From contig NZ_CP151726.1 in assembly GCF_038443385.1 (NCBI RefSeq), positions 2,790,001 through 2,854,000 on the forward strand: a DNA stretch of 64,000 bases, written 5' to 3'. Shown here piece by piece: positions 5,394 to 47,526 of the stretch. Below the pieces are notes generated by a model that was given only the letters and a program-made list of their open reading frames with translations, did no database searches and was not told where the DNA came from. Each line of letters starts with the position of its first letter. The first letter of the stretch is position 1. This DNA comes from Stieleria varia. GTDB lineage: Bacteria > Planctomycetota > Planctomycetia > Pirellulales > Pirellulaceae. Made by a program: the position numbers and the translations under genes.

Positions 5394-5629
5394 GAATCGA
5401 CAGAACCGGGTAGGTAAATGAATGCCGTGCCAAACCTGACTATCAGTTGGCAGAACCACAAAATCATCAAAAACAAATTAACTGAGCATCAATTGACACC
5501 CATTGAACTGGACGGCTCGCATTCGCGAATGCCGACCAGTTCTGAATTACCGTGAAAAAATGTGCCCCAGTTTAAGCCAATTGGCTGTAACTAAGCCACC
5601 ATCAAATACTCCTTGCCGCGTCCAAAACC
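5394..5629 (-). promoter_or_regulatory. Intergenic region upstream of giant gene 1
   Basis: This is the 236-bp gap between the stop of the 7630-residue gene and the ATG at 5393. It holds a perfect 14-bp palindrome, GCATTCGCGAATGC, at 5519-5532, about 125 bp upstream of the ATG, which could be an operator or a chance palindrome. No convincing -35/-10 pair was identified. Confidence 0.3.
5555..5592 (-). terminator. Possible weak terminator after giant gene 2
   Basis: On the minus strand, about 40 nt past the stop at 5630, an interrupted hairpin (AGTT-AGCC / GGCT-AACT arms, 5569-5592) is followed after 8 nt by six T (5560-5555). The stem is short and imperfect and the spacing to the T run is long, so this is tentative. 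Confidence 0.3.
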
Positions 5630-8600
5630 CTAAATCAGGTCCATGAACGCTGCATCCAACGCTTCAATCCGCTCAGAGCGTTCCTCAGTCTCATCCTGAT
5701 CTGCGGCGAGCAAATCGATCACATCTGCATCCGATGATGCGGGATTGGAGACTTCCACCAATTTCGCGGCCGCCGGCTCAATCAAATCGACGGCAACATC
5801 CGACGAAATCGTCTCGATGCTTGTTTCTGACCCCTTCTGCAGGGGCGTGCCGAGTCCGGCTCCGACAATCAACTCTCCTTCGATGTTGTCAGCTCTTCGC
5901 CGCCCCAGCTCGTCGATCACCGCCAAGGCGTCACCAGATGTGATGAATTGGTTTCCATTGACGTCGAAATAGGGAGGTCCGAAATCCGTGTCCTCGACAG
6001 GGATCGACCGTACCGATTGCCCAGCCTCACGACTCGCAGCAGCCAGTCGGTTGATGATCAACAACGCGTCAATCGCCGTCACGTTTCCGTCGTCGTTGAC
6101 GTCGTAGATCAAGTCTGGATTCTGCAGCCGGCTCAACACCACTTGCACGTCGACCGTCGCAACATTTCCGAGTCGGCCTTCCAAGTCCGCGACGGCGTAC
6201 TGGAAGGAATCATTCCCCACAAAACCCGTTCCCGGGATGTAACGAATGGTGCCGTCTCCACGTGCGATGGCCTGACCATGCAATGGCTGGCTGATGATCT
6301 GGATGCCCTGAGGATCAAGTGCACCATCCGGGTCCGAGTCGTTGACCAAGACGGCAATGTCCGTCGGCTCATCGATGAACACGAGTGCTCGATCATCGAA
6401 CGAAATCGGAGCAGCATTCGCTGCGATCGTGACGATTGCTGTCTGACTGACGAGCCCCAGTTCGTCCCGAACCGTGTATCCGAACTGGTCGACTTCATCG
6501 AACGCTTGGAACGGTGTGAACGTGATCACACCCTGAGGTGAGATGTCCAGTGAACCAAAGGCCGGCTGGAATGATATTTGGATCGACGACGGATCAATGG
6601 CATTGTCGATGTCAAAGTCGTTATCCAACACGTTGATCACGGTAGGACCAGATAAGCTCAGCGTCGGGTTGTCTCCGCGAACCGTTGGAGCGTCGTTGAC
6701 GCCGGTAACGTTCAAGGTCACGCTCACCTCCGGACTCGCTGAACCGCTGGCGTCAACCACCGAGTAGCGGAACGTATCACTCAAGATCTGCGACGGTGAC
6801 AACGCTTGCGCGGTGCTCGAGACCGTTGGATCATAAGTGATCAGTCCGGTCACCGAATCAAATGTCACGCGGGCACCACTGACCGAGAAGCCTTCCGCCG
6901 GCATCACGACACGCAGCACATCCGTACCCGCCGGTGGCAAGTCGGGATCAATGTCATTGGCCAGCAAAGCCGACGATGGGATCACCAGGACGCTGTCCTC
7001 GGTCGTGGAGAATCCACTGGCCCCTGGTGACGGGTCGGCAACTGCTCTCGGAATATCGTTGACCGCGTTGATTACCAATCGCAGCACCGTACCGTTGGTT
7101 CGAGCGCCGCCCGAATCAATCGCGACGACCTGCAAGTCGACGGTTCCGTTTGCATTGGCTGCAGGAATGAATCGCAGCACCCCGGTATCACTGATTTCCG
7201 GCAACGTTTGGAAAAGTGGTTGAGCGTCGACAGGTGTGGTGACCTCGAATCGAACACTTTGTGTGGACTCATCCGCAGGACCTGGCGAGATGTTGCGAGC
7301 CCATATGTCCGCGTACGGTCCACTGTCCTCGTCGATCGTCACGATCGATCCAGGGGTGAAACTCGGTGCGTCGTTGACCGGATTCACCCGAATGGTAAAG
7401 GTTCGCAATTCGCTTTCGTTGTCGTCGCCCTGCGGCAGATTGGTCGGTCCATCATCCACCAACTTGACGGTCAGCACGGCGACACCGTTCGCATTGGGTG
7501 CTGCTTGATACGTCAACGTCGCGCTCGTTCCATTGATCACCGCTGTCGGCGGAGTCAGGAACAATTCTGGGTTGCTTGAGACCTGGACGATCTCAAATGA
7601 CAGGTTCTGGCCGACTTCGTCCAGAGCGCTGGTGGGTCCTGGCTGGACATTGGTCGCCCAACCACTCACGGTGACAACACCGGCATCTTCTTGCGAGACA
7701 ACGTTGGACGCTCCACTGAACTGCGGAGAATCATTGACGGCCACGACATCGAATGTCACGGTGTTGGACGCAATTCTCGGATCGTTCGAAGCAATCCCGC
7801 CAGCTCCGATCCCGACCGTCACCCCATCGTCGGTCACGGTATAGATGAAGGAATCCGGACCGGTGTAGTTGGGTCGAGGCCGGTAACGTAAACGCGTCAG
7901 TCCCGTCGCATCCGAGATCGCTTCCAAGGTTCCGCCCGCTGCCGTTGCAACCGGGATCGGCGTCGTCAATGACACGCTCTGGTTTCCGCCCGGATCAACA
8001 TTGGACGACTCGTTGGCAGGTCCTGGCAGGAACACATCCAACAAGCCCGGAGAGACGGAGTCACCATTGACCAGGATGTCAAACGTGCCGTCCTCCAACA
8101 GGCTGAAATGCAGCGGATCCGCTGTCGGATCGACCACCGGTGGATCGTTGACAGGACGAACATCGATCGTGATCGTCGCCGGTATCGACGAAATCAAATC
8201 GCCCCGAGTCGCGTTGCCCGGTCCATCGTCCGTCAAGACGACTTCGAAGGTGAATCGACCGAACACGTCCGGTGCAGGCTGATAGCTCAATTGTCCTTGA
8301 GGCGTGATCGTAGGGAACTTGGTGAAGTACTGGCTCGACTCGGAAATCGGGAAACCAAGCGACGTCACACTGAATCGAACCGTTTGGCCCGCCACAATGT
8401 CCACTTCATCAAACGCGGTCGCTGGAGGGCCAGGATTGATGTTGAAGGCATAGTTGCTGATCGAGACTTCTGCACCGTCTTCGGATACCTCCAATTGGTT
8501 AGTTGCCAAGTTGAACTGAGGACGATCATTGACCGGAGTCAAGTCGAGGAAGACCGTGTTGTCCGATGTCAATCGATCCGGCACCAAGGCACCCGCGTTG

Positions 8601-11600
8601 ATCGAGTAGGTCTCACCCGCAACGCTGCCGTCTCGCACCGTGTAGGTAAACGAGTCCACTCCACCAATCGTGCTGTTGTAGTTCAACGGTGGCACATAGT
8701 TCAGTGCGACCAACTGACCATTTTCGAACACGCTAAAGAGTTGACCGCCCAGCGTGGTTGTTGCGGGGAACGCAAACAACTCCAAGGACTGCATTCCGCC
8801 TGGCGTTGAATCCGCTTCGTTGGCCGGACCGACCGTAAAGACATCCAACAAACCGACGGGATTGAACCCTACCGCATTGGGGTCTCGGCTGAGCTCGATG
8901 CGATACGGCGCCGTCGCTCCCAACGGCTGCGTGTTGTCCTCACGTAGACGATAGGTGATCGATGCGTCGATCACGTTGTTGTTGACGTCACGAACATTCG
9001 CAACCGAGTAGCCGGCATCTGGGTTGGCTTGGACCGACGTCCCTGCAACCGTGGGATCGAATCTCGGTGCATCGTTGACCGGACGTACGTTGATCGTAAT
9101 CAATGCATCCGTTACTCCGGCGTTGTTCGGGTCATCGTCTGTTGCTCGCAAGATGTAGACCGCCGTGCCGACCTGATCAGCACTTGGGTACACGGTCAGT
9201 CCGAGTCCCGCCGTAATCACCGGATCTTGTGACATCAGTCCTGTGGGGACGCTGACCGGGACGACACTGAACGTCACAGTCTGTGACGCCAACTCGTCCA
9301 AGGCCGTTGCTGGTCCCGGCAAAGCATTGCTGACGATGTTCGGCACAGTCGTTCCAGCAGAATCCTCCAGGACATCGATCTCTGTCGGTGAAGTGAACGT
9401 GGGCGGATCGTTTGTCGCGGTCACCGTGATCGTTACGGTCGCCGGGATCAGTGAGCGTTCATCCGCCAAGTCCTCCACCACACCACCGACAGGTTGTGTC
9501 GTCCGTCCGTCATCGGCGATCGTGTAGGTGAATAAATCATTGGCCACGAACGGCAACTGCTCGTTGTAGTCCTGAGGCGGTGTGTAGAGTCCGTTGACAA
9601 ATAATCCGTTGTTGAACGTCAGCGTCAATGTTCCGCCGATCGACGTGCCCAGTGTGTGAACACCATTGCCCGCCAATGCGACATCAACCGTGCCCTCTGA
9701 CGTCGAGAAGGAAACCACTCGCAACGACTGCTCGGTTTCATTGAAGGGAACCGGCAAGTCGTCGTCAAAATCTCCCGCGACCGCTTGCAACTCGCTCACG
9801 GCAATGCTGGCGGGGTTTGAGAAAGTCACTACCGCGCCATTCGCTGCGACCGCGTATCCATCAACACGCAACGCGTTTTGAACCAAAGTCGCTAACGTGT
9901 CCGCTGTATCCAAAGCCGTGAACGGAATCACGTAGTCAGACCCGATCGACAGCACTCCACTGGTGTTGAACTCAATGACGCGAGTGCCCGCTGGCGTCAC
10001 CAAGTCGACGGTCTCGCCATCGACCATCTCATTGCCGTTGGGCAACACGATTGTCGTCGGTGTCGTGACGACCGCCGTTGTCGGTGCGGCAGCGACCGCA
10101 GCGGTGACGTCAGTCAATGTCACGGCATTGCCTGCTGCGATCAACCCATATCCTTGGGCACGCAAGAGCGCCTGCATCGAAGATGCGATTTGCGGTGCCA
10201 AGTCATTTTGTGTGTACACGACAACCAGATCACTGCCAGCAGACGGAGTGCCAGTCGTGTTGAATTCGACGACCACCTGGCCACCGAATCCGTTGTTGAG
10301 GGTGATGGTCTCGCCGTTGATGATGTTGCCGCCGTCGGGCAACGTCAATTGTGCACCGGACACGCCAATCATCGAACTGCCGTCGTTGATGCTTGCAACT
10401 GTCAACTGACCCAGTCGTACATCCCATCGGGTACCAACACCCGCTTGAGAGACAGCTCCGAATCCTTGAGCGACCAACGCATTGCGAAGCTGATCCGCGA
10501 TCGTCTGTGAGCTGTCGGCCACCGAGTAACCGATGACAACATCTGCCCCACCGCGTGAGACCCCCGTCGTGTTGAACTCAACGACGAGATTGACGTTGTT
10601 TGCATCTGTAAAGGTGATCGTTTCACCACTCACCAATGTTGCCCCGTCAGGAATCGAGACCAGATTGGAGTTTGCAGAGATCGTCGAGTTGAACGTGCTG
10701 GACGTGATGTTCGTCACGCCAATGAGTGAGACAATATTGCCATTGGCAACACCGCCTGCTCCATCAGCACGCAGAACATTTTCGAGCTGCGTGGCGATCG
10801 TATCGGCAGTGTCCGACAAAGTGTAGGAAACAAGCAGATCGGTACCGATCGACGCCATGCCTGACGTGTTGAACTCGATCACCCGACGCAAGCCAGTGGA
10901 ATCCGTCAAGATAATCGTCTCACCATCGATCATCGTCGCACCATCCGGCACCGTGATCTGGCTGCTGGTTACCACGATCGGTGAATTGGCGTTGATCCCG
11001 CGTCCTTGCAGCAGATCAGCGGCTGTGAAGGACAATACGGCAGGGCCCGCTGGCTCAACCGCCTCGACCACTGACAGCGAACGATCGTACGCAACGGGAG
11101 CATCATTGACCGGCTCCAAGATTACCGTCGTCGTGACGGTACTGGTCAGCGGACTGACCACTCTGGTTCCATCAACCGCTTCATTGACACCGGTGTCCTC
11201 TACCGTGTACGAGAACTCGATCGTCCCGTAAATATCGTCTGCGGGGGTCAGCAACAGGTCGCCTGTCGGCAACAATTGGATTTGACCCTGAGAGGGATCG
11301 ATCGTCGCCCCTACGATACGCAACGGCGCATCGTTGTTTCCGACAAACGTGTTCTCGTCATTGGCCAGCGGAGAGCCCGCGAAGTCATTCTGCAACAGGA
11401 ACGCCGCAGGGATCAACAATTGCTCGTCCTCAGTGGGGACGGGCAGGTTTTGGCCTGCAAAGAATGCCGTGTACGCCGGATCGTCAATCGACAGCACTTC
11501 CGTCACCGGAGTTGGCGGATTGTTCTGCGGCGTGACACGAATCTCAGCGTTTCCGATCGCAGTCAACGGAGTTCCCACCGTTGGCGATCCGGCTCCCACG

Positions 11601-14600
11601 GGAGCCAGCAACCCATTGTCTTGAATCGTGTAGGTGAACCCGTCCAACAGCGGGCTGCCATCTGGATTTTGCGGGTTGTCGCTGTTGAAATCGAGGTTCG
11701 GCGTGTAAATCACTTTCGTGATCGTGCCGTCGATCGCAAACTCAGCGGACAACACGCCGTTAGCGGTCGTTGCAACGTCGAACTCATTCGCTTTGCTGAT
11801 CGTCAGTCCGCCTGCCGTCACCGAGATGACTCGCAACAGGGGTGTTTGGTCTGACTCGTCCCACGGTGCGGACGGGATTGCCGGGTTCGCATGCCCCACC
11901 GATCCGACCAACAGATCGGCAGGATCAATTTCCAACGAATCGGGCTGCAGGACATTTCGTTCAAGTCCAACGAAACTTCTCGGCAACGAACCGGGAACAA
12001 ATCCCGGAGCATCATTGACCGGTTCAACGTTGATCGTCACGGTCGCAAAGGTCGCCAATGCGGCAGAGCTTCCGCTGTTGGCTTGTGTGCTGAGCCGATA
12101 GGTAAACGTGTCGACGCCGTAGAAATCGGTATTCGGAATGTAGGTAAAGTAGCCCTCGACCTCGTCCGTCACGATCAACGTACCATTGCTTGGCTGCTGC
12201 CCGACAAAGAATCGGGTGTCCAATAGCTGACCATTCACGTTGGCGTCGTTGAACAGTAAGTCGTTCTGCGCACTCACCGAATTGACCACCAACGTGGTGT
12301 CTTCGCGAGTTGTGTAGACATCTGGATTCGGAGTCGGCAGTGCCAGTGGAATCACCGAAACCAAGTAGTCTTCGACCTCACCGCCGACGGCCACGCCGCC
12401 CGGCAGGAGGTTGCCCGATGAACTCAAACGTACACGCATCCAAGTGTCGCCAGGGTCGGCTGTTGGATCCGAGATGACGGTCACATTGCGATCCCCATCA
12501 ACGACAGGGACATTGCGGGCGACCTGCTCGTCTTCATCAAAACGACCGTTCTGGTCAAAGTCGACCCAGATATCCAGCAATCCAGAGCCGGTTACGTGAA
12601 TCGGGATGGATGTTCCAGCGGGATCCAGCGGATTCAGGAAACCAACAACGTCCGACCTCGTGATGACCTGACCCTCAGGAGTTCCCGGTTGAACAAACAC
12701 GCGATAGCTGTTTGTTCCGTCGTTAAACACTCGTACAGGCACGCCGTCTTCGTCATCCACCGCAGTCAATGTCAAAATCGTGCCCGTCGCATCAAACGAC
12801 TGCAGAACCGCTTCGTCCACGACGTCAAAGTTGGCTCGAATGGCATCCGACAACTTCTTTGCGATGCTGCTCGATGGCTCACCGCTCGTGAACGTGACAG
12901 GGATGTTTCCAGACGTCGGGTTCGCCGTCGACTGAATCAATTGGAATGTTTTCGTCGTTCCGCCAATCGTTAACTGAACGGTCTCCCCACCAACCGGTGG
13001 AGCAGGCAGGACAGTGACACTGATCGCATTGCTCGCTACCGGGCGAACGTCGAAGACCACACCTGTGACGGTTGCTGAAAGACTCAGCGGCGTATCGTCT
13101 TGATTGATCGGCTGACCATCATTCTCGGTGTCTAGGTGCTCACCCAAACGCAGCGTGCTGGTTCCGGAATAGGTGTGCCGAGCACCGTTGTCAGCCAGCA
13201 CGGTTTGGTAGGACGGAGGCGCATCACCGTAGTCAAACACGACCTCAGGCATAATGATCGTGAATCGAGTTTCGTTGGTCACCCGTGTTTGCCGCACCGA
13301 ATTACCGGCCAAGTCGGCGATCGCAGGGACCACGTCCCCGATACTCGTCAACAATCCGCTGAAATCTCCCTGCACCAACGTTGCGTTGTTGATCAACAGC
13401 GTTCCACCACCAGGATTGAACGCTGCAATGGTCAGTCCCGATTGACGAATCGAGGTTTGCAAAGCCGAGGCAATCACGGCAGGTGAGACTTGTGGGCTCG
13501 GCAGGAACTCAACAGGAATTGCGCCGGGTGTCACTCCCGGTGCACCTGCCAATGTCAAACCGCTGCCATTGACGATCAGGGTGTCAACTTCCAGTCCGCC
13601 CAACACCACTCGGCCGCCACCAACGCCCTGTGCCTCGGTCAGTCCCAGGCTTTGCTGACCGACGGCAACCGCAATCGCTGCTGCGATTTGATCCGGGGTG
13701 TCAGCACGTGTGAAGGTGATCGGCAGGAAAGAAGGATCCGAAACGCCCAGGTCCGTCGTTAATTCAAAGGTTACCGATTCCGTACCAGAGGTGTACGTGA
13801 ATCCGTCACCATCGACAACTCCTCCGGCCTGTCCACTGAATGTGATGGCTGCCGCATTGGTTGTCACTGTATGACCGGCCAGCGTGCCCAGTTGAATCTC
13901 ATCGCCGCCAATGGCAACAGGAACCAAATCGAGAACAGCTTGCACTGTCGATGCCGAACCGGGATCGGTCGACGCCAACGCCGCCAGAATTGCATTGCGA
14001 ACACCTTGAATCGTGCCGGTGCTGGTCAGGTCAACACGGATATTGCCATTGGTCACGGATCCGTTCGTGTCGAACTCCAGGTTCCGCACCACACCTGTTG
14101 GCGAAGTGATGGTGAGCAAGTCTCCATCGTTGAACAATGCACTGGTTTCCGTCACTTTCAATTTCGTGGTTTGAGGCACCACGAGTGAAAATCCGCTATC
14201 GAACTCAAAGACGGATTGAACTCCCAGATCGTCTGTGATCACGACCTGGTTGCCATCGGCGATCTGATCACCACTGGGCAACGTGATCTCAATCCGCTCA
14301 TCATTGTTCAGCGTGATCTCGTAAACCGCATCCGGTCGCCAAATGCCCGTCAACGGCGTCAAACGAATCGTTCGGCTATTTCCGCTGTAGCCGAACACGT
14401 AATCCTGATCAGGGATCAATCGGATGCCGTCCTCGGTCAGAATCACCGTTTCGGTGTTCACCGTCAACGGATCAATTCCGGTGCCTGCGGGATCGTAGAG
14501 TTGGACTTCAAAAAACTCTACTGTTCCTTCGATCAAACGGACGAACGACTCATCGACGTCTCGATCGCCACCGTCGATTTGAAAACCAATCGAATCTTGT

Positions 14601-28522: not shown

Positions 28523-28639
28523 TTTTGACCTGGCCTACAGAAAGGAAACGGAATGATTTTTTGGGGAAAAAGATCGCGAAACGGATCACGGAAATTGCAG
28601 CAGTGAATGCTGCCATTCTCGCATAGGATCACGACACGA

Positions 28640-28677
28640 CGAAACCGCCTCTCGGGGGAATCCGAGAGTCGGTTTCG
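28640..28677 (-). terminator. Strong two-step hairpin between giant genes 3 and 2
   Basis: An outer 8-bp stem (CGAAACCG/CGGTTTCG) and an inner 7-bp stem (CTCTCGG/CCGAGAG) are separated by a one-base mismatch, with a 6-nt loop. It lies 34 nt past the stop at 28711 and about 117 nt before the ATG at 28522. There is no T run after it, so it may be a factor-assisted terminator or an mRNA processing/stability element. Confidence 0.5.
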
Positions 28678-28710
28678 GCAACGGAAAATAATTCGTCGTC
28701 AGGTGGGGAA

Positions 28711-40700: not shown

Positions 40701-43700
40701 CGGCTTGTCCCGCCGTCGCTTCGTTCTCCTGAGCTTCACCCAAGAACGGTGAACTGCCCAACAACCCGCTGACGTGAACACCATGGTTGGCATAGCGAAT
40801 GTCGCTGTACCGAACCACACTGCCGGGGAACTCTTGATTTTCAGTCAGTCGAACTTGGAAACGATAGCCGCCGCGTGTCAGGCCACCTGCAGCGTCATCC
40901 GGATTGACCGATCCGCTGCGGACGCGAAAGAAGTACGTGCCTCGGGAATTGGGATCCGCATTGTTGCCGGTCAGAACAAAGTGAATGCCGGCATCGCGCA
41001 CGTTCGTCGTACCAAAGTCCTCGTACAAACCGCCGACGCCAAATTCACTGAACTCGGTTGCCCGCGCTTGCAGCGATGTCGTCACACCGTCAAGTCTCGG
41101 GTCAAAAACGTCAACGGTCGATCCGTTCGCTACTTCCACGCTGCTGTTGTCACTACGCGCGAGAACTTGGCCGTTCTCATCGAGCAGCTCAATCACAGTG
41201 TCCAATCCGAACGATGTCTGATCGATGTCCACCCAGACTTCCGTTCCCGGTTTACCGGTGAAGCTATAGGTATCGACATCGGTCGGTCCCGAAAGGAATC
41301 CTTCCACCTCGAATCCCAGACGCAAGACTTCGTCGCTGGCACTCAAATTACTTGCCAACGCACCCAAGAACTGTGCGTTCTCCACATCACCGTTGAGTCC
41401 CGGAGCGACTTCCGTGGACAACTCAAACTCTGGAATCACTGCAACGTTGCGATCAACGCTGTATTGATCCAAGTAAACACTTCGCCAATCGTTGGGCGAT
41501 GGACGCGAACTGATGCCGTCACCGTTGTTGTCGGTGAACTGGGAGCCATCGGGCTTCAAACCAGCGCCAACGGTGTCGTCCAAGAAACTCGTCAACACCA
41601 CCGGAGCACCCGGTTGGCCAAGAATCGAAATGGAACCTCCGATACGATCGATCGCATCGTCAGGCGTGCCCGTTGCGGTGAACCCGGTACCAATGGTCGA
41701 GCTGTTCGGTGTGCCTGACCCAATCAACTTGACAACCAAGCTCTCGTCGGGACGGCTTCGCAGTTTCAGCCCACCGGACGAATGGAAATTGCCGACTTCG
41801 ATCGTATCGAACAGCAAGTGAACGATGTCGGTGTCGTCCCATACACTTTCCGTTGTCAAAATACCGCCACGAACTTCCATCCCCGTGATCTGATTCAGAC
41901 CCGGCAAGTCGTTGTCTTCATAGCGGTTGAATCGGACCAACGGACCAAAGTTGTCGTCAAGTTCAGCGAATCGATCGATTGACCCGGTCTGACGCCCCGT
42001 GTCCACGCGGCGTTCTGCGGTCAACGAGTCGCTGTCGATATCGATGTTCGAACCGTCGTTGTCGACAAAGGTGTTGCCGACGATGATCGGCTGAGCGCCG
42101 CGAACAAAGATCGTTGATGGGGCAGCAGCCAATCGACCGAATCGACCCGACGGTCCGGCGCCGTCTTGCCCACTATCATTGAACTCAAAGCGGCTGTTGG
42201 TGATGCGTCCCAATGCTTGCTGCAACTGCAACGGAACGAATCCGTAGGTCTCTCCGCCTTCGATCAAACTGATTCCGCCGGCAAACGACACCACGGAATG
42301 ATCCAAACTGATTGTCGACGTGGGACCAGCGTAAATGCCCGCCCAATCACCTGCGGACCCTTCACGGGCCGCACCATCGACGAAGTTATTGTTGGTATCG
42401 AACGTGCCACCGGCACCGTAGTTGTCGTCCTGGATGCTGGTGAAGATGACCGGATTGCTGGTCAATCCCTCCGCCAGCATGACCGTTCCCGGTTCCAGCT
42501 CGATACGAGAACCGCTGAGCTTCATCACAAGCCCTGGGTCGACGATCAGCGACGCATCCAGACGACCGCGAGTCCCCTGACGCGTCAAATCCAAAACGCC
42601 GTCCGAAATCGTGCCGTCATCAATGAATCCTGCAGATGACGCATCCAGGTCAGCCACCAAACGGTACACCGGGTTGGGACCTGCGTCGGCGCGATAAAGA
42701 CGTCGTGAGACGTATTGGCCGCCAAGTTCCACCAATGGCAAACCGGTCATCTCGATCGTCGAATTGGCATTGGCGACCGTGAAGGAAAAACTCGTCGCAG
42801 GCTGGTTAGGAACGTTGTCCGGAGTCGCCAACGACTCGAAACCGTCTTTGTCGACAAATGTCAACTTGTACGTGTAGGTGCCTGGCTGGAACGTTCCCCC
42901 AGACAGTTCGCGGGCGGAAACCAGCCCCAGCGAGGGCGCGAACGAATCGGTGATGGTTCCCCCGGACTGGCCGGCGACCACGAGATTTTCGGGCAAGTAG
43001 TGAACGACTCCAATGTCGTCAAAACGCCCAGCGACGGTCAACTTCTTGGGGGTCTCGGTCGATGTGGTCGAGATCCGAATGAAAAGTCCGTTGACCGAGT
43101 TTTCCAGGAACAGGTTGTTGCTGATATCGGGTCCGACGCGGTCGTAATCCGCAGTGAAGGCGCCCGCCTGTTGGAAACGAGGTGACTGGTACGACGTTTC
43201 TTCGAAACTGTCCGGAGATGCACTGATGGCTGCGTCCGCACTTTGAGTGATCTCATTGAAAGTCAACGTGGGACGCATGTTGATGATTTGGATCGGGTTG
43301 ACCAACTGCTGGACCGAATCGATCAACACATTGCTGCTACCGCCATACCGAATTTCGGCATGATTGATGCGTTGCAAAAAGATCCCTTCGTCTTCCAGAT
43401 CGCGGCGTCCCTCGAACTGATCCAACTCTCGTCGATAAATGATGCCGCCCCAATCGCCGGCGGCAGCATTGTTGCCGGTGCCCGCAGCGGCAGTATCAGC
43501 AACTCGATCCCGGATGCTGGTGATGATCACACTGCCATCGTCGTAGCTTGCAATCGTATTGTCGGCGTTGCCGACCAGTGTCGTTTCGACCGGCTGATTT
43601 GAATGGCTCAGTCCGACCAACCGCGGCGTTCCCAAGATTTGCAACGCGCCGCCACTGCGGTCCACTTGCAACGTGCTGCTACCGACCATGATGTACGAGC

Positions 43701-46700
43701 CACGCAATTTGAGGATCGCGCCGGCGTCGATCATCGTGGTCACGCCCTTGGGCACTTCCATCACACGACCGTCTTCCAACGTCTGTCCGCCGACGTCGGC
43801 AAATCCGATCTTGTAGCTAAAGTTGTCTTCTTGAGTGGTGAGATCGCCGTCCAAACCACCGTTGCCGACGATGCGAACGATGTCGCCGTCCAACGTACTG
43901 TTGAACGCGCTGGCCACCGTCGTGCTGGCAATGTTGTTGAACGGTCTTGCCAAACTGCCGTCCGCATTCGGTCCGGCCGTTTTGTCGACAAAGATGTTAC
44001 GTCCGATGGCGGTTGCACCACGCCAATCGGCGGACAGTTCAATGCTCCGTTCGCCCGTGAAAATCAAACCCGTCAGCGAACGTGAAACGACAACGCCCGT
44101 CTCTCCGGACCGACTGTTGATCGCAGCCTGCAATGCGGCAGCAATATTGCCCGCCGGTGTCGGGAATCCGAGCGTCCCGTCGCTGTAGAAAACCGGTACG
44201 GTCCCTGCGGTCGGTGTCCCGCCGTCGGGCACCAATTCGTAGGTCCGAATGATCGGGTTTCCAGCAACATCTGTTCCCGCAACCACCTCCAACTTCTGGC
44301 CCGGCGTGATCGCTTCGCCATTGTCGGTGAAATTCAAGATTCGATTCAGAGGCCTGGTCTGGAACCAGAAATTGTGCTCCCCGCCGGGAACCCCATCTCC
44401 ATCGCCATCCAGTCGAGTCCCGGGCAAATCCTGACGCCCGCTATCCAAATCTCGAATCACATCGACTTCGTCGACCTGTGGTTCGAACTTGATTTGCAGT
44501 CCGTACTTTCCTTGCGTCCGGCCACCGAATCCGCTTTGCGTCAAGGTCGGGTCGTAGGTGTCGTTGCCACTGGCGGCAACGCCCACGTAATAGACACCTT
44601 CGCCAAGCGTCGCGACGATCCGAGAGTCTTCGCTGAAATAATCGTCATTGCGGCTGATCATTTCCAAGCCACCGCCTCGGAAAATGATCGGCTGAGGCTG
44701 GGTCGCTCCACTGATATTGGTCGCACCGTTGCCGAAGGTCACCGCGGCCCGCATGATCGAACTGGCAAACGGGTCGGCGTTGATTGCGTCCACAACATCT
44801 TGCGCGGGGACACTCGTGATCGTTCCTGAAATCCGCGGGATATCGATCAACAACGCATTGGCGATCGGATCGCCGTTGGCATCGAAGACACGATTGATAC
44901 GAATCGCGTTGTCACCGGCAACCCGATCGGACTGCAGGAAATCAATGCGAGTGTTGTTTCCAAGTGCTCCCTTCAGCAAAGAGGTGAACCGCAACGCCAA
45001 GTCGGGGCCGGTCTCAAAATCCGTCTCGGCAAAGGCAGACTTTTCCTGAAACAACGTCAACGTCGTGTCCAGCGAACTGGCGTCGGGCAAACGCTCGGCA
45101 AACGTTTCTGCCGTAAACGTCCCCACACGGTCGACGTCCTGCAGGTTGACCTCGAATCGATAAAGGTCGACATCCAAACTGTCGGGGCGATGCAAGTACT
45201 GGCCGTGCAGAACATCGTGATTGCCTGGGAAGACCGGCTCCAGGCCCGTCAACTGATCGATACCGGCATTCAAGAACCCGCCGTTCAACGCCATTACCGT
45301 CTGCGCAGGCAAATCCTGGGCTTGTTCCAACCCGAGCAAGAACCCGATCCCTGCAACCGCCTTGCGAGTGAAGTCCTCACCGTATGCAGTGCCGAAGTCG
45401 GTCTGATTGCTGAACACAATCGCAGACTCTGTGAATGTCGGGTCGATCCGCACCGTCGCATTGAGCTGCGGGATGCTGGCGCGTGTGGTGCCCGGCATGA
45501 ACTGCAGCGTCGCGGTATCCCCGACTGCGAACGTGATTCCCAGATCCTCCGTTTCGCGGAACTGAACGCCGATCTCGCTTGCCCACAAATCCAATGCTTC
45601 ACGAATTCTCAATCGCTGGCGTTGAGTGATTTGATTCAGGAAGGAATTCGGACCCGACGTGTCGAAAATGCTTTGGAAATTGTAGGGGATCTCCGTCACG
45701 CCGTTGACCGAATCGGCACCGAAATCGACGTTGACGTGCTGCAGCAAACCGCCGATGCCTTCGGGCAACTCTCGGTGTCCAGGGTCGTCGTTTCCACCAG
45801 GCAATTCGATCGCGAACGGCTGCGGATCGATCGACTCGGTCAAGATCAAACTCGTGATCGCTTCATCACGTCCAAAGATGCCGATGTCCAGCGATGTCGT
45901 CAGAGTGTCGCCGGCGGCTTGCAGCACCAAACCGGTCGAACCGATGACCGACTGCGGCAACGGCAGGTTTCCGCCTGCTCGGCGAACACCATTGAGTTCC
46001 CAATCGATTTCGATCAACGCATCGACAGCCGCGTTGGCAAGAATCGCAGACTCCAGATCGATGACTTCCGGTGCCGTGCCGCCGAAGTCAAACACGATCG
46101 CACCACTGATATCCACCCGCGCGGTGACGCCGCCTGCGGAGGAATCTTCAAATCGAATCACGCGCCCAGAGCTATTCTCGCCAATCTGTTTTTCGGCAAA
46201 GCGGACTTGTAAACCCGCTTGTTGGAAATCGGTGACCGCAGTGGCGCGTACCGCAAACGGTTCCGGCTCCAGAATGATCTCCATTTGATTGTTCTGGATC
46301 GGCGTGACTCCGTCGCCCACCGCCGTTCCGATGCGCAATCGCCACGTACCGCCTTCCAATGGGACGCCGGGCAAATTGTTGATGTCGTCGGCAAAGATCA
46401 ATCGTGCCGTGTGCGTCGCCGCATCGTAGACGACTTCCTCAGGATCAAACAGCAAGTCGTCCGTCGTCCGCACCGTCTCTTGGGTGAAAAAGAGCTGATA
46501 GAAACGAGGATTCTCAGCCGAACGAAGCGTCGGGTTTCCCTTGATCACAAAGGTGCTGTTCGCCCCCGGTGGGACGAAGACCGCATTGGAGTTGCCTGCA
46601 GTCACGGACGCTTGAAAATTCGTCAGCGAATTGATCGCCGTGGCGACTTGACCAATCGTCCCCGTCGCTGGACGCGTCACGGTAATCGCGTTGGCCGCCG

Positions 46701-47526
46701 CATCCAGTACCGCGACGGTGTTGGTGCCGGCTGCTCCGGTTTGGAATAAGACCTTGGTGTTTGTAAACGAAGGTGCTGTCAAACTCGCCGTCACCGTGAT
46801 CTGGCCATTGGGGACCGTCAGCACACCGCCCGCCGAATCGTCCTCGACAAACAGCGGATCCTCATTGAAATAAACCACCACCTCATTGCGGTTCTGGGAC
46901 AGCGAACCGTCCTCGTTTCGAATCACCGGTTGTGGAACGACCGATTCGACCAAAGCCCCCAACGCCAACTTGAAATTGATCACCTCGCTGCGACGCCCCG
47001 CTTGACGCGGCATCAACAACTCGCCGCCTGTGTTACGCAGTCCAACGATGCCCAGACCGGTGTCGTCAAATCCGAACACTTCCAGTCGGTAGTTGTCGTC
47101 AGGCAACGCGTCGGAGAATCGAATCTCGACCTCATTCTGCTTGACGTCATTGACCACGATCAGACCCGGCTCAATCACCACGTCGTCGTCGGCCGCCGAT
47201 CCGAATACTCCGTCCGGTCCGCTTCTGGTGATCCGAATCGCGTCCAACGATGCCTGCGAGATGATCTGGTCCTCGTCAAATCGCAACGTCAAAACACGCG
47301 GCGCGACATCGCGCACACTGCCGTCGATAATCAGATCGCCTTCGTTGGGCTGCACCCCAATCAATTGCGGACCGGCCAACAGTTGGCGACTTTCCAAAGA
47401 CTCCAGCAAATGCCGACGACGCTTCTTACGACTGGAATCACTCTTACGGGCGCGAGGGACGCTTGTGGGATGAGTCGGTTGCAGATTAGCCGATTGCGTC
47501 GTGCTCTTTCGCTTACGCGAGGTCAT
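28711..47526 (-). CDS. Giant multidomain surface protein (paralogue 3), 6271 residues, with GEVED, tandem Ig domains and dockerin
   Basis: An unbroken 18.8-kb frame. The start chosen is the ATG at 47526 because AAGG lies 8 nt upstream; a TTG five codons earlier is possible. A very basic N-terminus is followed by LLESLESRQLLAGP and no hydrophobic signal peptide is seen. The order is Big_5-type Ig domain, degenerate metzincin domain (AGIGFLLGLEQ at 725-735 in place of HExxHxxGxxH), PPC-like domain, beta-helix segments, a single RRLYR-type module, repeated PPC-like and jelly-roll-like stretches, and beta-helix again. A long module array, a GEVED domain (about 4775-5085), about five tandem-95 Ig-like domains with a three-module insert, a dockerin (6091-6163) and a 108-residue acidic tail complete it. 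It is first in a row of three paralogues on one strand. Likely an exported adhesive or scaffold protein; function not otherwise known. Confidence 0.93.
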   Translation of the reverse strand: MTSRKRKSTTQSANLQPTHPTSVPRARKSDSSRKKRRRHLLESLESRQLLAGPQLIGVQPNEGDLIIDGSVRDVAPRVLTLRFDEDQIISQASLDAIRITRSGPDGVFGSAADDDVVIEPGLIVVNDVKQNEVEIRFSDALPDDNYRLEVFGFDDTGLGIVGLRNTGGELLMPRQAGRRSEVINFKLALGALVESVVPQPVIRNEDGSLSQNRNEVVVYFNEDPLFVEDDSAGGVLTVPNGQITVTASLTAPSFTNTKVLFQTGAAGTNTVAVLDAAANAITVTRPATGTIGQVATAINSLTNFQASVTAGNSNAVFVPPGANSTFVIKGNPTLRSAENPRFYQLFFTQETVRTTDDLLFDPEEVVYDAATHTARLIFADDINNLPGVPLEGGTWRLRIGTAVGDGVTPIQNNQMEIILEPEPFAVRATAVTDFQQAGLQVRFAEKQIGENSSGRVIRFEDSSAGGVTARVDISGAIVFDFGGTAPEVIDLESAILANAAVDALIEIDWELNGVRRAGGNLPLPQSVIGSTGLVLQAAGDTLTTSLDIGIFGRDEAITSLILTESIDPQPFAIELPGGNDDPGHRELPEGIGGLLQHVNVDFGADSVNGVTEIPYNFQSIFDTSGPNSFLNQITQRQRLRIREALDLWASEIGVQFRETEDLGITFAVGDTATLQFMPGTTRASIPQLNATVRIDPTFTESAIVFSNQTDFGTAYGEDFTRKAVAGIGFLLGLEQAQDLPAQTVMALNGGFLNAGIDQLTGLEPVFPGNHDVLHGQYLHRPDSLDVDLYRFEVNLQDVDRVGTFTAETFAERLPDASSLDTTLTLFQEKSAFAETDFETGPDLALRFTSLLKGALGNNTRIDFLQSDRVAGDNAIRINRVFDANGDPIANALLIDIPRISGTITSVPAQDVVDAINADPFASSIMRAAVTFGNGATNISGATQPQPIIFRGGGLEMISRNDDYFSEDSRIVATLGEGVYYVGVAASGNDTYDPTLTQSGFGGRTQGKYGLQIKFEPQVDEVDVIRDLDSGRQDLPGTRLDGDGDGVPGGEHNFWFQTRPLNRILNFTDNGEAITPGQKLEVVAGTDVAGNPIIRTYELVPDGGTPTAGTVPVFYSDGTLGFPTPAGNIAAALQAAINSRSGETGVVVSRSLTGLIFTGERSIELSADWRGATAIGRNIFVDKTAGPNADGSLARPFNNIASTTVASAFNSTLDGDIVRIVGNGGLDGDLTTQEDNFSYKIGFADVGGQTLEDGRVMEVPKGVTTMIDAGAILKLRGSYIMVGSSTLQVDRSGGALQILGTPRLVGLSHSNQPVETTLVGNADNTIASYDDGSVIITSIRDRVADTAAAGTGNNAAAGDWGGIIYRRELDQFEGRRDLEDEGIFLQRINHAEIRYGGSSNVLIDSVQQLVNPIQIINMRPTLTFNEITQSADAAISASPDSFEETSYQSPRFQQAGAFTADYDRVGPDISNNLFLENSVNGLFIRISTTSTETPKKLTVAGRFDDIGVVHYLPENLVVAGQSGGTITDSFAPSLGLVSARELSGGTFQPGTYTYKLTFVDKDGFESLATPDNVPNQPATSFSFTVANANSTIEMTGLPLVELGGQYVSRRLYRADAGPNPVYRLVADLDASSAGFIDDGTISDGVLDLTRQGTRGRLDASLIVDPGLVMKLSGSRIELEPGTVMLAEGLTSNPVIFTSIQDDNYGAGGTFDTNNNFVDGAAREGSAGDWAGIYAGPTSTISLDHSVVSFAGGISLIEGGETYGFVPLQLQQALGRITNSRFEFNDSGQDGAGPSGRFGRLAAAPSTIFVRGAQPIIVGNTFVDNDGSNIDIDSDSLTAERRVDTGRQTGSIDRFAELDDNFGPLVRFNRYEDNDLPGLNQITGMEVRGGILTTESVWDDTDIVHLLFDTIEVGNFHSSGGLKLRSRPDESLVVKLIGSGTPNSSTIGTGFTATGTPDDAIDRIGGSISILGQPGAPVVLTSFLDDTVGAGLKPDGSQFTDNNGDGISSRPSPNDWRSVYLDQYSVDRNVAVIPEFELSTEVAPGLNGDVENAQFLGALASNLSASDEVLRLGFEVEGFLSGPTDVDTYSFTGKPGTEVWVDIDQTSFGLDTVIELLDENGQVLARSDNSSVEVANGSTVDVFDPRLDGVTTSLQARATEFSEFGVGGLYEDFGTTNVRDAGIHFVLTGNNADPNSRGTYFFRVRSGSVNPDDAAGGLTRGGYRFQVRLTENQEFPGSVVRYSDIRYANHGVHVSGLLGSSPFLGEAQENEATAGQAASNDRLDSPIVRVADTTPPGQRPQNLGNLTGNRADVISVGGSLDGFGDIDFYQFTVDFAGINGATRSTVFDIDYADGFNRPDTNISVFYDPDGEFNETLQPRLVLFGSASNIFDDQTSPNGENNELEKLLRGSIATGDPLIGPVTLPEGTYYVAVTADGLEPLELSRAEVRREPVNSVRRIVEDRIDNAPFGTANGPQISDLFAPADIAAAGFTTALDGLPGHGQPIHFDGSSTVAFAATGRFSETAVAFGDAPETFGLTVNADLSLLDYSVNDDSAIGGRFAFDPLSGAFISENTSTTIPHVTIQGTLRDLPGTGCIDCADFYEIVVSEDGSRVILDVDGAQNGLQGLDNDDDSTPFNPDFNAADTDLVVIRQDPGGLGWQFLGAGVGSSRFNNSNVSDGRLGSSSVDDPFFDQILAAGTYAVGVLHTSATFDLNNGFPVVGNPTTTMLTADYDLHVSIENQLLPPSASANSVLQFDRLNNFATGTLTSQPFDLVGYAASDLPTSYFNYRYDPVIGDTVSARIFSDQDMTGISLSGQLISNDIWNQIRTDLSAFAGHTGIRFEFTYNPSAQLASTEIGLMLDDFIVGFAERGETVFNTRGDEDRFVGFASGGTGEYQLEMRPGTEYATPSVFGGLQLNDDYDTNDRHSQSVTLYAPAGSQLSDGDTFVLGDGASNQVFEFTTTPGSVGFGNTAVLFSATDTPAQIAQAIRTALTQQTSIAIEAASSSGNDTGTLTDGRLALSGSARGTFLSIDSLGGAPDTSLPLSVDADGHLLMPAVLHNGMGDLNYERTQGQIFIDANTISDVRGIGIWSEPGVRDTDPEDQRYLQTGFFDPINVNSGTPNPFLELPPVGNTYPGGVRNLPTLNDSVLGGLTPGVVISNNTIDQAGYAGIKVDGETAPWEIDTEDLVNTLMDDGALLTIDAGGTRVVFEFEEINGAGPAFGGTNTPGGNGVADGNVPIYYREFTATVYNGRAFESSSHELSTAIAQAIQGSILVTNGLVELVDVSVGPSMYQRDNGLAFLGQGWMGSPDTAVYIQGASQIYYTPLRSSGISRITQVPVYEAPQPFARIVNNTIYGSDGRESLFPELPPATGTDSDDLIATAIDTNVGPSHRGPYVANAQIGDNAGPLGMGADVDFYRVELGLGDRLIVDIDTLDADPANGIVEGADTVVRIYNEQGVLQEFLDANGTLVTLSDQATAPNYLDPAFSAFNETIVDAVNTRDPFIDFTALAKGSYYVAVSSVGNSDYDPNALSGRTDVTVGTGDYTISMEAYAPRTHVIGVETGNATGARGTDVSGSIFRVTQIPDFGPNALVNNGFNYITYEILSGNAAPTVDANGNNIADLFITLNDNDHLPDIMREISGGINLAVVQGVTNTPLANHESLNGPGGISGPITRVRAQALGGIDGDNAGLNNLTRTGLPIRMVHRPSSATNGPTDFQRGFGHDRLTSGGNGTTEQYVFVENAAKIEILAGPLTLDPVAGRDTDQLINETGVMVAGGASPALLNNVFLNLHESVVVEETYNGGFNAGAPGFDNHVKPMEVVVVGNTFQHDEPLPTRIAVQVGAGITTGNNEPSNINGGADDFNQTALNNAVVLVNPQGDSFLPAPGSGVIDSAVNSLNERDAFANLKQSVGIPVSNILAPIRDVNGVLRADNPDFPNLGIGGIVFRDRGSTELADFVGPVAVAEVPRDNDAEGIDSDPTVSVINLSGGVYDEFRIQLRDNGDASDPFLGNSINDNTVVVPEIPGLRAAGANVTVFEDDQLLTEGIDYTFSYDETKNIITLTPLAGIWQSDRAYRIELNNADRTVLIAPDAREVIDGDQLEITDSAGGRVVFEFESGFQLRFPDPLTLTVPQVGTNQGGLIDGGIFQVNDGSGSPVVFEFNSDTAKLPDSVEVRLPAGNTPIDDADLAPFLNQIAQNIADAIDGEVQAGRLDLDVRVDGATVILGSERGATVDTVTSGLLQDVQSLAISVPAAGAGVGGVVAGQTFVLDNGTRAATFEIVDRNLPALGNIGIDIAQQIPGQFLTADEVARAIQTAIAQSPLGLSPTIEGTSVYLALPVNGSATAAPGPLSIVGLSRTPADGDAIQFTPADGSAQVIFELNRTDEPDVNGGTMDDGVAASNIAINFNRATTADELALLTQGAIRSRSIAGIDPNEVQTASGGILTVGGQQGLGLAVIGSSIDVVGSPDVTGPTTVEVFGPLLLKVPLVGGGGLNDGEQLTITDAGGNPFVFEFDSNGVVFTPGATAIPFNQFDDVDTLSTAIETAINAAPLGITATYLGNGDLSLGRIASDRVTSTSVLLTTERGIVFDQEILTIRQGNVVVNFEFDSVAGGGGVNQGNVPVPFQPGSTTGDVAVSLAAAIRNNLNGLVLSPVAELDDLGVPTGVVALNDLPGTAVNVTQAPTLLVSGVPGGAIPVRISPSFTTTEVKRALLAAIGRVNEGSDFPVSTLTARDRGGSTLFVENGAIFNGPVSNFFLPAIRDDQGNALEANREDATTQFTILMPTVSLDYGDAPDPVGGVPGRYPTLLEDNGARHVVGGTARLGATIDGESNALASVGAKGDDVTIDISGTGASFDARLDPVVDGRATIRIARNLNVPLLTDGDTVTVDLGATQATLELDLNGRFDEDNFAIRPQDFLANPSDPITIDAVAAAIVAAINESPLAPADVTIFGDTVIISSDDEDGVSFVSDVNPNGLLNKALTLPITVTGNGVLQGWIDYNADGDWDDPGEAILFYPSGSDRVADRASASTEVVLTSNNSSNPVTFYTFVPESTPEPLQTTTTYARFRISESGGLAPTGLALSGEVEDYALLTVPGRPPTLNDGNAIRSYTVEEDRVLNVLDVQGNLTPLTTNDDGLLAGVTDPDGQSVRVFSGDVGQQFIRDAAGNILADLNVAVDGTFTFDSVQDLNGPVTFSIRVTDTNPANPLTELVNSRPITVTVNITPANDKPLTSQQDVITTRTIDEDIVQIFTAQELILDQGYVPGPSNEVGQPLIFESGGSDIRGPFRTDQGGFLELVRASNFSYSDRTLTVPSGATLMDGQVIVVTGIDGEELVVEFSISGNPSTAADVVVPFTTADTAETIAARLGQELGVFDAGGVVAADKIIFRGITSLETESLAPTVVAGLTVRVPAGNTLQDGESVLLRTATGVIKLEFDSDGNSAGDSDVVVPFTTADTAETIAASAKALLDARGVRVRVPNNLNVAGDADRLVFYDVITAEVVSPVQTVAITPLGITVGAGISVADGETVLLTTPDGEVRVEFDSNAALTSNFNLRVPFTAADTAAEVTASLNNVLTNAGYRVEIAGAGDRLVFGVEPVDVQLELIRYTPPANFNGDQPDVFNYTVADVPPVGQISEVADKRGTVSITVNAVNDPPITLSDSYSAFENMPLTFPILTDITDGQGNVIQSAILSNDLPGPPDEVNAGQTISLFQPGVQFPATTFRGGSVSLENGALVYRPPGLYSGPDSFTYVVQDSEGATSTGQVFFNVGGTNDAPIFDGVNGMKVNGNPNDPVDTLVFQESKQDPEQTQYDLTTWFIDPENDAMTFTVTSSDPSILQVALAQETLSLTRQPFAFGDVNLIVTATDSTGLMTQQVISVTVENEEDAPSVRPGAPTVLTGTEDQVITTDLGAVFFDPDRTQLNYRVARIDSTVLSGSTQQINAQIALHPLLQSVTTVGNTLFVTPKANQFGTVEIEIAASDSLFTVTHTFTVTFTPVPDAPVALGDSYSIPIGSTLQILNPANGLLQNEVDPDGDSITVELIPGSGPTLGTLDLQADGTFVYTNVDGDVGDVDTFRYRPVDSTGLVGSEVVVSFTLTQSRYQNPIDNLRQDVNADGFITALDALRIINLLGREGSRNVPVSTLTTPPPDFYDTNGNGFVSAQDALDVINELAKRNGQGGREGEQVTASLLMATTTAIASPSNAFVPARNVESIFEQDSPDDELIVFNDGRDALLTAGLEINVAPANSVAETLQNDTGAVDDESVDEALTDLMDEMSVLGPYPF
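29038..29256 (-). other. Dockerin type I domain of giant protein 3
   Basis: Residues 6091-6163 contain two calcium loops, DVNADGFITALDAL and DTNGNGFVSAQDAL, each followed by a short helix (RIINLLG and DVINELAKR). It is closely similar to the dockerin of giant protein 2 and is likewise followed by a roughly 100-residue acidic tail. Confidence 0.88.
30770..31636 (-). repeat. Three-copy module array inside a tandem-95 domain of giant protein 3
   Basis: Three units begin VPSGATLMDGQ, VPAGNTLQDGES and VGAGISVADGET. Two of them share the identical segment DVVVPFTTADTAETIAA and the third has NLRVPFTAADTAAEV. They are placed between FLELVRASNFSYSD and VQLELIRYTPPANFNGDQ, that is, inside one Ig-like domain, as in giant protein 2. 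Confidence 0.75.
32270..33200 (-). other. GEVED domain of giant protein 3, with a nested module
   Basis: LDYGDAPDPVGG ... EDNGARHVV ... LGATIDGES opens it. DDEDGVSF, GWIDYNADGDWDDPGE and ALSGEVEDYALL follow in the canonical GEVED order. A unit with DGDTVTVDLG ... ATLELDLNG ... IDAVAAAIVAAI (about 32680-32920) is inserted before DEDGV, at the same place as in giant protein 2. Confidence 0.75.
33260..35300 (-). repeat. Long module array of giant protein 3
   Basis: About six to seven divergent units recur, with signatures such as EVIDGDQLEITDSAGG + VFEFESG, GLIDGGIFQVNDG + VFEFNSD, VVAGQTFVLDNG + ATFEIVD, and GLNDGEQLTITDAGG + FVFEFDSNG + DVDTLSTAIETAI. It corresponds in position to module array B of giant protein 2, but is longer. 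Confidence 0.7.
37520..38000 (-). other. Module inserted in a beta-helix segment of giant protein 3
   Basis: About 160 residues with MDDGALLTIDAGGTRVVFEFEE, NVPIYYREF and HELSTAIAQAIQG separate GVVISNNTIDQAGYAGIKVDG from ARIVNNTIYGS. Giant protein 2 reads GVVISNNVVSGSGSVGIDFGG with a short link to GRIVNNTVVNTG, so the module interrupts a continuous parallel-beta-helix run. Confidence 0.65.
45322..45354 (-). other. Degenerate metzincin motif (AGIGFLLGLEQ) of giant protein 3
   Basis: Residues 725-735 occupy the position of HELGHSIGLGH in giant protein 1. The three His are Ala, Phe and Glu, and the catalytic Glu is Gly, while the two Gly and the later TVM (Met-turn region) are kept. The fold is probably retained without zinc chemistry. 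Confidence 0.75.

Follow-up and report, generated by a model that had tools for sequence, protein, structure and literature searches.

A Flagellin_IN-like module probably inserted into host domains and into its own kind in giant proteins of Stieleria varia

How did one small protein unit come to lie, singly and in runs, inside so many parts of neighbouring giant proteins? The question is raised by a 64,000-nucleotide stretch of the Stieleria varia genome (contig NZ_CP151726.1, positions 2,790,001 to 2,854,000; hereafter the window), whose minus strand carries three adjacent giant genes and another long open reading frame (ORF) near the high end. Two of the giant genes, P1 and P2, are complete; the third leaves the window at its low end and is represented by P0003, in the window, and P0005. 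A first-pass annotation, made from the sequence alone, had described in P1 and P2 an unnamed unit that spreads like an intragenic mobile domain. The explanation that we consider probable as a whole is that of a Flagellin_IN-like insertion module that became nested in a loop of its own kind, was multiplied there in tandem and was then inherited vertically.

A module profile, seeded with 19 hand-picked copies (of 21 that were cut out, one was dropped for its shortness and one as false) and then iterated over the window, recovers 27 full-length copies of about 95 residues, 16 in P1 and 11 in P2. Two more copies exist as halves (P1 residues 4745-4776 and 4996-5051; P2 4086-4116 and a C-half from 4687). 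The more than twenty divergent copies first counted in the two complete giants are borne out. All 27 score at least 42.6 bits, while the top decoy among reversed and locally shuffled proteins reached 7.5 bits over four rounds; a later profile that included the two other paralogues found the same 27 at 39 bits or more (decoys were scored with the first profile only). The consensus, LTLTVPDGAALVDGDTLTLTDGTGTVTFEFDSNG...GGNVPVPFTASDTADTIAAALAAAIN, matches the motif given by the first-pass annotation. Pairwise identity among the full window copies is low at the protein level (median 28%, highest 47%), and their GC content and third-codon-position GC (GC3) are close to those of the surrounding sequence. 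Full modules fill 1511 of the 7630 residues of P1 and 1100 of the 6276 residues of P2 (counted from TTG).

One copy was modelled alone, with the other 26 as its alignment, as had been proposed as a test of the unit. It reached a mean predicted local distance difference test score (pLDDT) of 95.1 and a predicted template-modelling score (pTM) of 0.85, with strands at residues 15-20, 23-30 and 41-44, a helix at 51-63 and strands at 69-72, 75-78 and 83-86. The module is therefore, in prediction, a self-folding unit. This, together with a host site that is empty or filled in relatives, upholds the idea that a complete folding unit was repeatedly inserted; the nesting of the unit in its own kind goes beyond it.

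Nesting is seen as brackets, in which an N-terminal and a C-terminal half of one module enclose whole modules (N-half [whole modules] C-half). Such a bracket is present in all four paralogues, namely P1 (two inner modules), P2 (five), P0005 (three) and P0006, a gene at 8.53 Mb of the same genome (four). In an alignment of these regions (A2), all four brackets sit in an immunoglobulin (Ig)-like domain directly before the GEVED domain; a Foldseek search with the host nest (463 residues) returned mostly Ig-type domains at E 0.008 or worse, a hint on the host domain only. At this host site in P1, P2 and P0005, half-profiles score the N-halves at 18.6-22 bits and the C-halves at 6.5-26.9 bits, and among decoys no N-half exceeded 6.1 bits and no C-half 1 bit. 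The only other match above the decoys in P1 and P2 is a C-like half of 3.8 bits at P2 913-940, within a different kind of module. Another region of P0006 reads N N [whole] C C, three levels of modules one inside the other; here the inner N-half was recognized by eye, the inner C-half scores 4.9 bits and the rest was detected by profile. Across related loci with detected halves, the N-half ends at profile position 32 in 27 of 49 cases and the C-half starts at position 36 in 16 of 32; thus the split falls mostly in one loop, after the F-E-F strand (the beta3-beta4 loop).

Related loci show the same host site in a series of states. These loci were collected with one peptide pattern from 84,980 species genomes (the 80 best of 88 loci were kept, and records close to the window's genome may be missing), and rows were classed chiefly by their distance to GEVED, with 15 rows and 59 outgroup-type rows labelled by hand after reading. 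Among the 138 rows, which include the four of the own genome, the site is empty in 61 and holds one intact module in 1, while 76 have a split module holding other modules: N[1]C in 3, N[2]C in 27, N[3]C in 24, N[4]C in 2 and N[5+]C in 20. The Ig-like domain of loci L104 and L106 reads straight through without a module, L070 has one intact module at the site, a split module enclosing a single whole one is found in L068, L091 and L092, and most other related loci have two, three or five. Outgroup-type sites came from 67 genomes picked for weak anchor matches, and 60 of the 72 matches listed were read, with the profile. Of these 60 sites, 46 belong to other families of the order and 14 to other genera of the family; 59 are empty, and the state of one could not be read. 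This ratio is not a frequency, because of how the genomes were picked. Since empty sites occur throughout the outgroup families, insertion, not loss, is the natural reading. The states cluster on a tree built from the host domain only (138 rows and 148 columns, quick method, leaving aside six rows whose state could not be read): 11 changes suffice for the seven states, compared with a mean of 68.9 after shuffling, and the distinction between empty and filled needs 2.

These states bear directly on the view that the units are integral parts of their host domains and not insertions. Being in frame and conserved between orthologues, the units would suit that view, but a lone unit is predicted to fold at pLDDT 95 and the host domain runs on without a module in 61 of 138 rows. 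We therefore regard it as very improbable; for the Ig-like host, an integral-strand reading is contradicted by those uninterrupted domains, and it may still hold for the five window blocks, listed below, that have no continuous counterpart in the paralogues.

A further alternative is an ordinary tandem array with truncated first and last copies, the halves being their remnants. Tandem duplication did occur, some halves are weak or undetected, and C-like half matches at P0005 2572-2608 and at P0006 3085-3126 and 3855-3883 have no N-half found by profile, all of which such an array would explain. It does not account for the intact single module of L070 at the same host position or for the empty site in 61 of 138 rows. 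Moreover, the strong halves in P1 and P2 are one N-half before and one C-half after whole modules, and the N N [whole] C C order of P0006 (its inner N-half by eye) does not fit truncated ends. Halves in the starred clade of L070 also tend to match the two parts of its intact module: the C-half is closer to L070's C part than any inner module is in 8 of 9 loci, and the N-half to its N part in 5 of 9. We judge the truncated array unlikely, and prefer nesting by insertion.

Several observations weigh against nesting as we read it, or limit it. Outside L070's clade the halves are not closer to L070 than inner modules are (over all 71 loci used, with 5 skipped, N-halves are closer in 18 and C-halves in 10). 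Of the 72 N[..]C loci that could be located, no more than 27 had both halves detected by half-profiles, the P0006 N-half at the host site was missed by the half-profile and rests on alignment A2, and the remaining detected breaks scatter over profile positions 28-49. The model of the whole nest reached pLDDT 84.5 and pTM 0.66 without coordinates, so the pairing of the halves across the insert was not seen; this model and alignment A4 omit five short loci on purpose (L091, L068, L070, L104 and L106). The tree, short on columns and with its deep forks left open, does not fix the sequence in which the middle states arose, and losses may have occurred. Further brackets were suspected by eye in regions of P0005 and P0006, where C-halves were found at P0005 2572-2608 and P0006 3855-3883 and the half-profile found no partnering N-halves; in the seven-module run of P1 it found neither an N- nor a C-half.

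Modules also lie in other host domains. Each of the 12 module blocks of P1 and P2 was excised and its joined flanks were aligned to the three paralogues, a procedure used because MAFFT alignment of whole paralogues misaligns some arrays. For four of the 12 blocks, the corresponding place is uninterrupted in a paralogue: P1 5853-6249 (cadherin-like) in the third gene (42/47% identity), P2 1066-1178 (at the border before a beta-helix) in all three paralogues (43-51%), and P1 5160-5272 and P2 4866-4972 (GEVED) in P0006 (30-39%). For the two Ig-like host-site blocks, the uninterrupted state is shown by relatives, not by paralogues. The flanks of the P2 cadherin block 5302-5598 match only at non-matching places among the three paralogues, and five blocks have no continuous counterpart in them (P1 2963-3697, 3912-4020 and 4205-4310; P2 2931-3033 and 3190-3285, the latter being itself only a weak partial match). 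Other flags of continuity raised by the test were not counted, as one side was low in identity or in the wrong place. The first-pass statement that many copies interrupt domains continuous in the sister protein thus holds for part of the copies, in these four blocks and, through relatives, in the two Ig-like ones.

Tandem growth, which had been set aside in favour of insertion, has a part of its own. The first inner module of P0006 is tripled, with 47-55% identity among the copies (about 65% at the DNA level), and relatives have an orthologue of its last inner module (56-63% identity); the other 13 rows of P0006's starred clade have two inner modules where P0006 has four. Judged from these sequences, units inserted in the occupied loop have clearly been multiplied by tandem duplication. 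Simple tandem growth is thus rightly denied for the single copies and the brackets, which insertion would have set up, and wrongly for the copies within the loop.

Could the module be an element that is mobile now, or was recently, jumping in frame like an intein or a transposon? Its scattered sites in different host domains and its nesting in its own kind would be expected of such an element. We found, however, no gain or loss of a module when P1 was compared with two orthologues, which are 55% and 57% identical to it across some 6,200 residues (its N-terminal approximately 1,000 residues lie outside the loci compared and hold no module). The sole insert of at least 30 residues in this comparison is a stretch in P1 residues 1610-1871 (window 22910-23695, minus strand; DVVVVMDESISMGS) that is absent from both orthologues and that we take to be von Willebrand A-like. 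The best pair of window copies is only 47% identical, the tandem copies of P0006 are about 65% identical at the DNA level, and base composition is native. All 40 profile matches in the own genome, moreover, fall in four giant ORFs: P1, P2, the third neighbour and the P0006 gene. A mobile element is accordingly a most improbable account, and the description as an intragenic mobile domain is not supported in any present-day sense.

The module is present in 41 of 60 genomes searched as relatives and, at E 1e-6, in 20 of 294 genomes of the phylum, for which the best 17 candidates per genome were scored (both counts include the own genome). A 1797-residue ORF elsewhere (L240 2888-8281, plus strand) matches the profile at 65.4 bits; by eye it is kelch-like with a lipoprotein-like start.

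No curated family in Pfam, NCBIfam or PHROGs fits the window copies, in line with the remark that no family name was known for the unit, a remark softened by a distant kinship to Flagellin_IN (PF07196), the commonest domain in the central region of flagellins according to one report (PMC5595980). Two of the 27 window copies match Flagellin_IN at E up to 10 (best E 0.011), none reaches its Pfam gathering cut-off (22.7 bits), and whole-protein scans of P1 and P2 give no match to it at E up to 0.1. Giant ORFs of about 6,000-6,500 residues in relatives contain five Flagellin_IN matches of 22.5-27.9 bits that were flagged as passing the cut-off, one of them only by counting neighbouring matches, and at least three of the five coincide with the module, in genome G004 by translation and in G009 and G010 by translation and profile match. 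An hhalign comparison of the module with 22 flagellar segments scored 24.6, whereas 100 shuffles of the columns reached at most 13.9, the reversed profile 17.0 and the host Ig domain 11.8; the probability of the match is just 47%, and a weak 15% with the window copies alone. The best match to a PDB structure, the flagellin FliC of P. aeruginosa, is likewise weak (E 0.32, TM 0.54); the top ten viral models, some of them named baseplate J-like, match at E 0.002-0.011 (TM 0.55-0.75), and no structure match falls below E 0.001. In another class of the phylum, a FlgE hook protein (L241 1156-4020, plus strand) carries a copy of the module at residues 434-512 (45.5 bits), between Pfam domains D1 and D2.

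The module thus looks like distant kin of flagellar outer domains, and not like a member of PF07196. It shares with Flagellin_IN and with the outer domains of FliC, FliD and FlgE the strand-helix-hairpin pattern, the 'AIN' end of the helix and the weak profile kinship, and differs by an extra strand, a longer loop, self-nesting and its place in an extracellular, dockerin-ended protein instead of a flagellum; Pfam scans find no flagellar domain in P1 or P2, and dockerin, cadherin and GEVED instead. A phage origin of the window copies was also considered and is unsupported. Five PHROGs families match with one member each (best E 0.0035); and a tblastn search with one four-module run returned no phage record at E 0.01.

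Recursive insertion within one domain family is already known. HABAS (hybrid-motif) domains of RNA polymerase beta-prime, in Si3 of cyanobacteria, are described as recursively inserted, with up to six nesting levels (PMC11515920, PMC13114784), by a mechanism that one of them calls unclear (PMC11515920). As there, a small domain has been put into a base domain and then repeatedly into its own family, with a copy number at one location that varies by lineage; here too the base domain also exists without the module, and the module is inserted into a member of its own family. HABAS domains, compared by description only, have a four-stranded open sheet and belong to an ancient housekeeping enzyme, whereas the present module is of flagellar type, lies in several types of host domain in giant surface proteins and has empty, intact and split states in living relatives. 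The present case is set apart by the module, by the giant surface proteins that carry it and by relatives in which the empty, single and nested states all survive. The available text of the literature searched, including PMC7717043, PMC6461901, PMC13114784, PMC5595980, PMC11573180 and PMC11515920, yielded no description of the module.

In the history that we propose, an alpha/beta unit of about 95 residues (three strands, a helix and about three strands) of Flagellin_IN-like type would have been placed in Ig-like, GEVED and cadherin-like host domains in ancestors of the giant surface proteins of Pirellulaceae. Later insertions would have gone into the module itself, in the beta3-beta4 loop directly behind the F-E-F strand, and produced the brackets; once a loop was occupied the inserted units could multiply by tandem duplication. 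The arrays would afterwards have been inherited vertically with rare change. At the DNA level, rare illegitimate or homologous recombination between copies seems a more likely route than a dedicated mobile element.

The positions of modules, host site and genes are collected in Table 1. Pfam scans miss the module itself and find GEVED, Big_9/Cadherin and dockerin in both proteins, together with Planc_extracel in P2; in P1, Planc_extracel, PPC and beta-helix matches lie below the Pfam cut-offs only. The third giant gene encodes 6901 residues from its first start codon, or 6858 from an ATG at residue 44 (hand count). Table 2 of PMC7717043 gives giant proteins of 6271, 7630 and 6858 residues with consecutive locus tags for Stieleria varia Pla52n; gene lengths and order match those of P1, P2 and the third gene, P1 having the length of Pla52n_17490 and P2 that of Pla52n_17480. 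The accessible part of that account presents these 'Tandem-95 repeat / uncharacterized / matrixin' giants as putative adhesion or polysaccharide-acting proteins, and describes neither the module nor its nesting.

Table 1. Positions in the window of the giant genes P1 and P2, their modules and the Ig-like host site.
Feature	Window position	Strand	Basis and remarks
P1 giant gene	5630..28522	-	7630 aa (amino acids); 16 full modules and one split; open ORF
P1 seven-module run (aa 2968-3691)	17450..19621	-	profile; by eye may sit inside a split module, half-profiles give no support
P1 single module (aa 3914-4016)	16475..16783	-	profile
P1 single module (aa 4211-4299)	15626..15892	-	profile
P1 Ig-like host domain, portion before insertion	14294..14629	-	alignment A2; uninterrupted in other loci; weak Ig-type Foldseek matches
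P1 split module, N-half (aa 4745-4776)	14195..14290	-	22 bits; top N decoy 6.1
P1 nested module 1, within split module	13850..14164	-	profile
P1 nested module 2, within split module	13556..13849	-	profile
P1 split module, C-half (aa 4996-5051)	13370..13537	-	18 bits; no C decoy above 1
P1 Ig-like host domain, portion after insertion, reaching GEVED	13241..13345	-	comparison with relatives
P1 single module interrupting GEVED (aa 5166-5264)	12731..13027	-	profile and flank test
P1 four-module run in cadherin-like domain, continuous in third paralogue	9785..10960	-	profile and flank test; among the most alike pairs
P2 giant gene	28711..47526 (ORF to 47541)	-	6271 aa from ATG at 47526, 6276 aa from TTG; 11 full modules and one split; open ORF
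P2 second module type	46507-46836 and 44647-44994	-	by eye; about 1 bit or less where the main profile matches at all
P2 single module (aa 1069-1170) in stretch continuous in all three paralogues	44032..44337	-	profile and flank test
P2 single module (aa 2933-3026)	38464..38745	-	profile
P2 split module, N-half (aa 4086-4116)	35194..35286	-	18.6 bits
P2 five modules nested within split module	33505..35163	-	profile
P2 split module, C-half (about aa 4687-4744)	33310..33483	-	6.5 bits; profile match spans first 28-30 residues only
P2 single module in GEVED (aa 4868-4967)	32641..32940	-	profile and flank test
P2 three-module run in cadherin-like domain	30748..31629	-	profile

Three side observations concern the neighbourhood. 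P0003 (window 3-5459, minus strand) retains matrixin-type zinc motifs (Pfam Peptidase_M10, two stretches); by eye, its zinc motif is lost at the matching place in P1 and P2, which therefore look like dead-protease sisters of P0003. A second, different type of inserted alpha/beta module (...VVDAINADP...) breaks N-terminal domains, by eye, at P2 residues 236-345 and 850-965 and P0006 residues 160-400. At about residues 1520-2120 of P0004 (window 57464-63988, minus strand), a run of near-identical repeats of approximately 108 residues (LFLNYDDNNSLLRSGVFVFAPDGSLLTSLEDTDSVSF...), also noted by eye, reads as recent tandem growth, unlike the neighbouring modules, which are old and divergent.

As to function, the modules may serve as rigid spacers and side branches, making a secreted adhesin-like protein with a dockerin end longer and rougher; we infer this role from the dockerin, cadherin and GEVED domains that accompany them and from the guess published in PMC7717043. 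If the halves of a split module re-fold around their insert, the result would be a branched, not a linear, protein stalk. A broader proposal, plausible enough to pursue though we would not count on it, is that the loop behind the F-E-F strand is a dedicated acceptor site for further modules of this kind, and that the giants are extended under a recursive bracket rule, by insertion, nesting, multiplication and renewed nesting, of which nearly every step is kept in living Pirellulales; the same rule may also have shaped the nested outer domains of flagellar proteins.

Insertion of one domain into another is usually reconstructed from distant end states, whereas here empty, single, once-nested and multiply nested states are found at one position in living relatives. 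Such a living series permits each insertion step to be dated, ordered and reconstructed in the laboratory, and it gives a likely origin for an unannotated share of giant planctomycete proteins.
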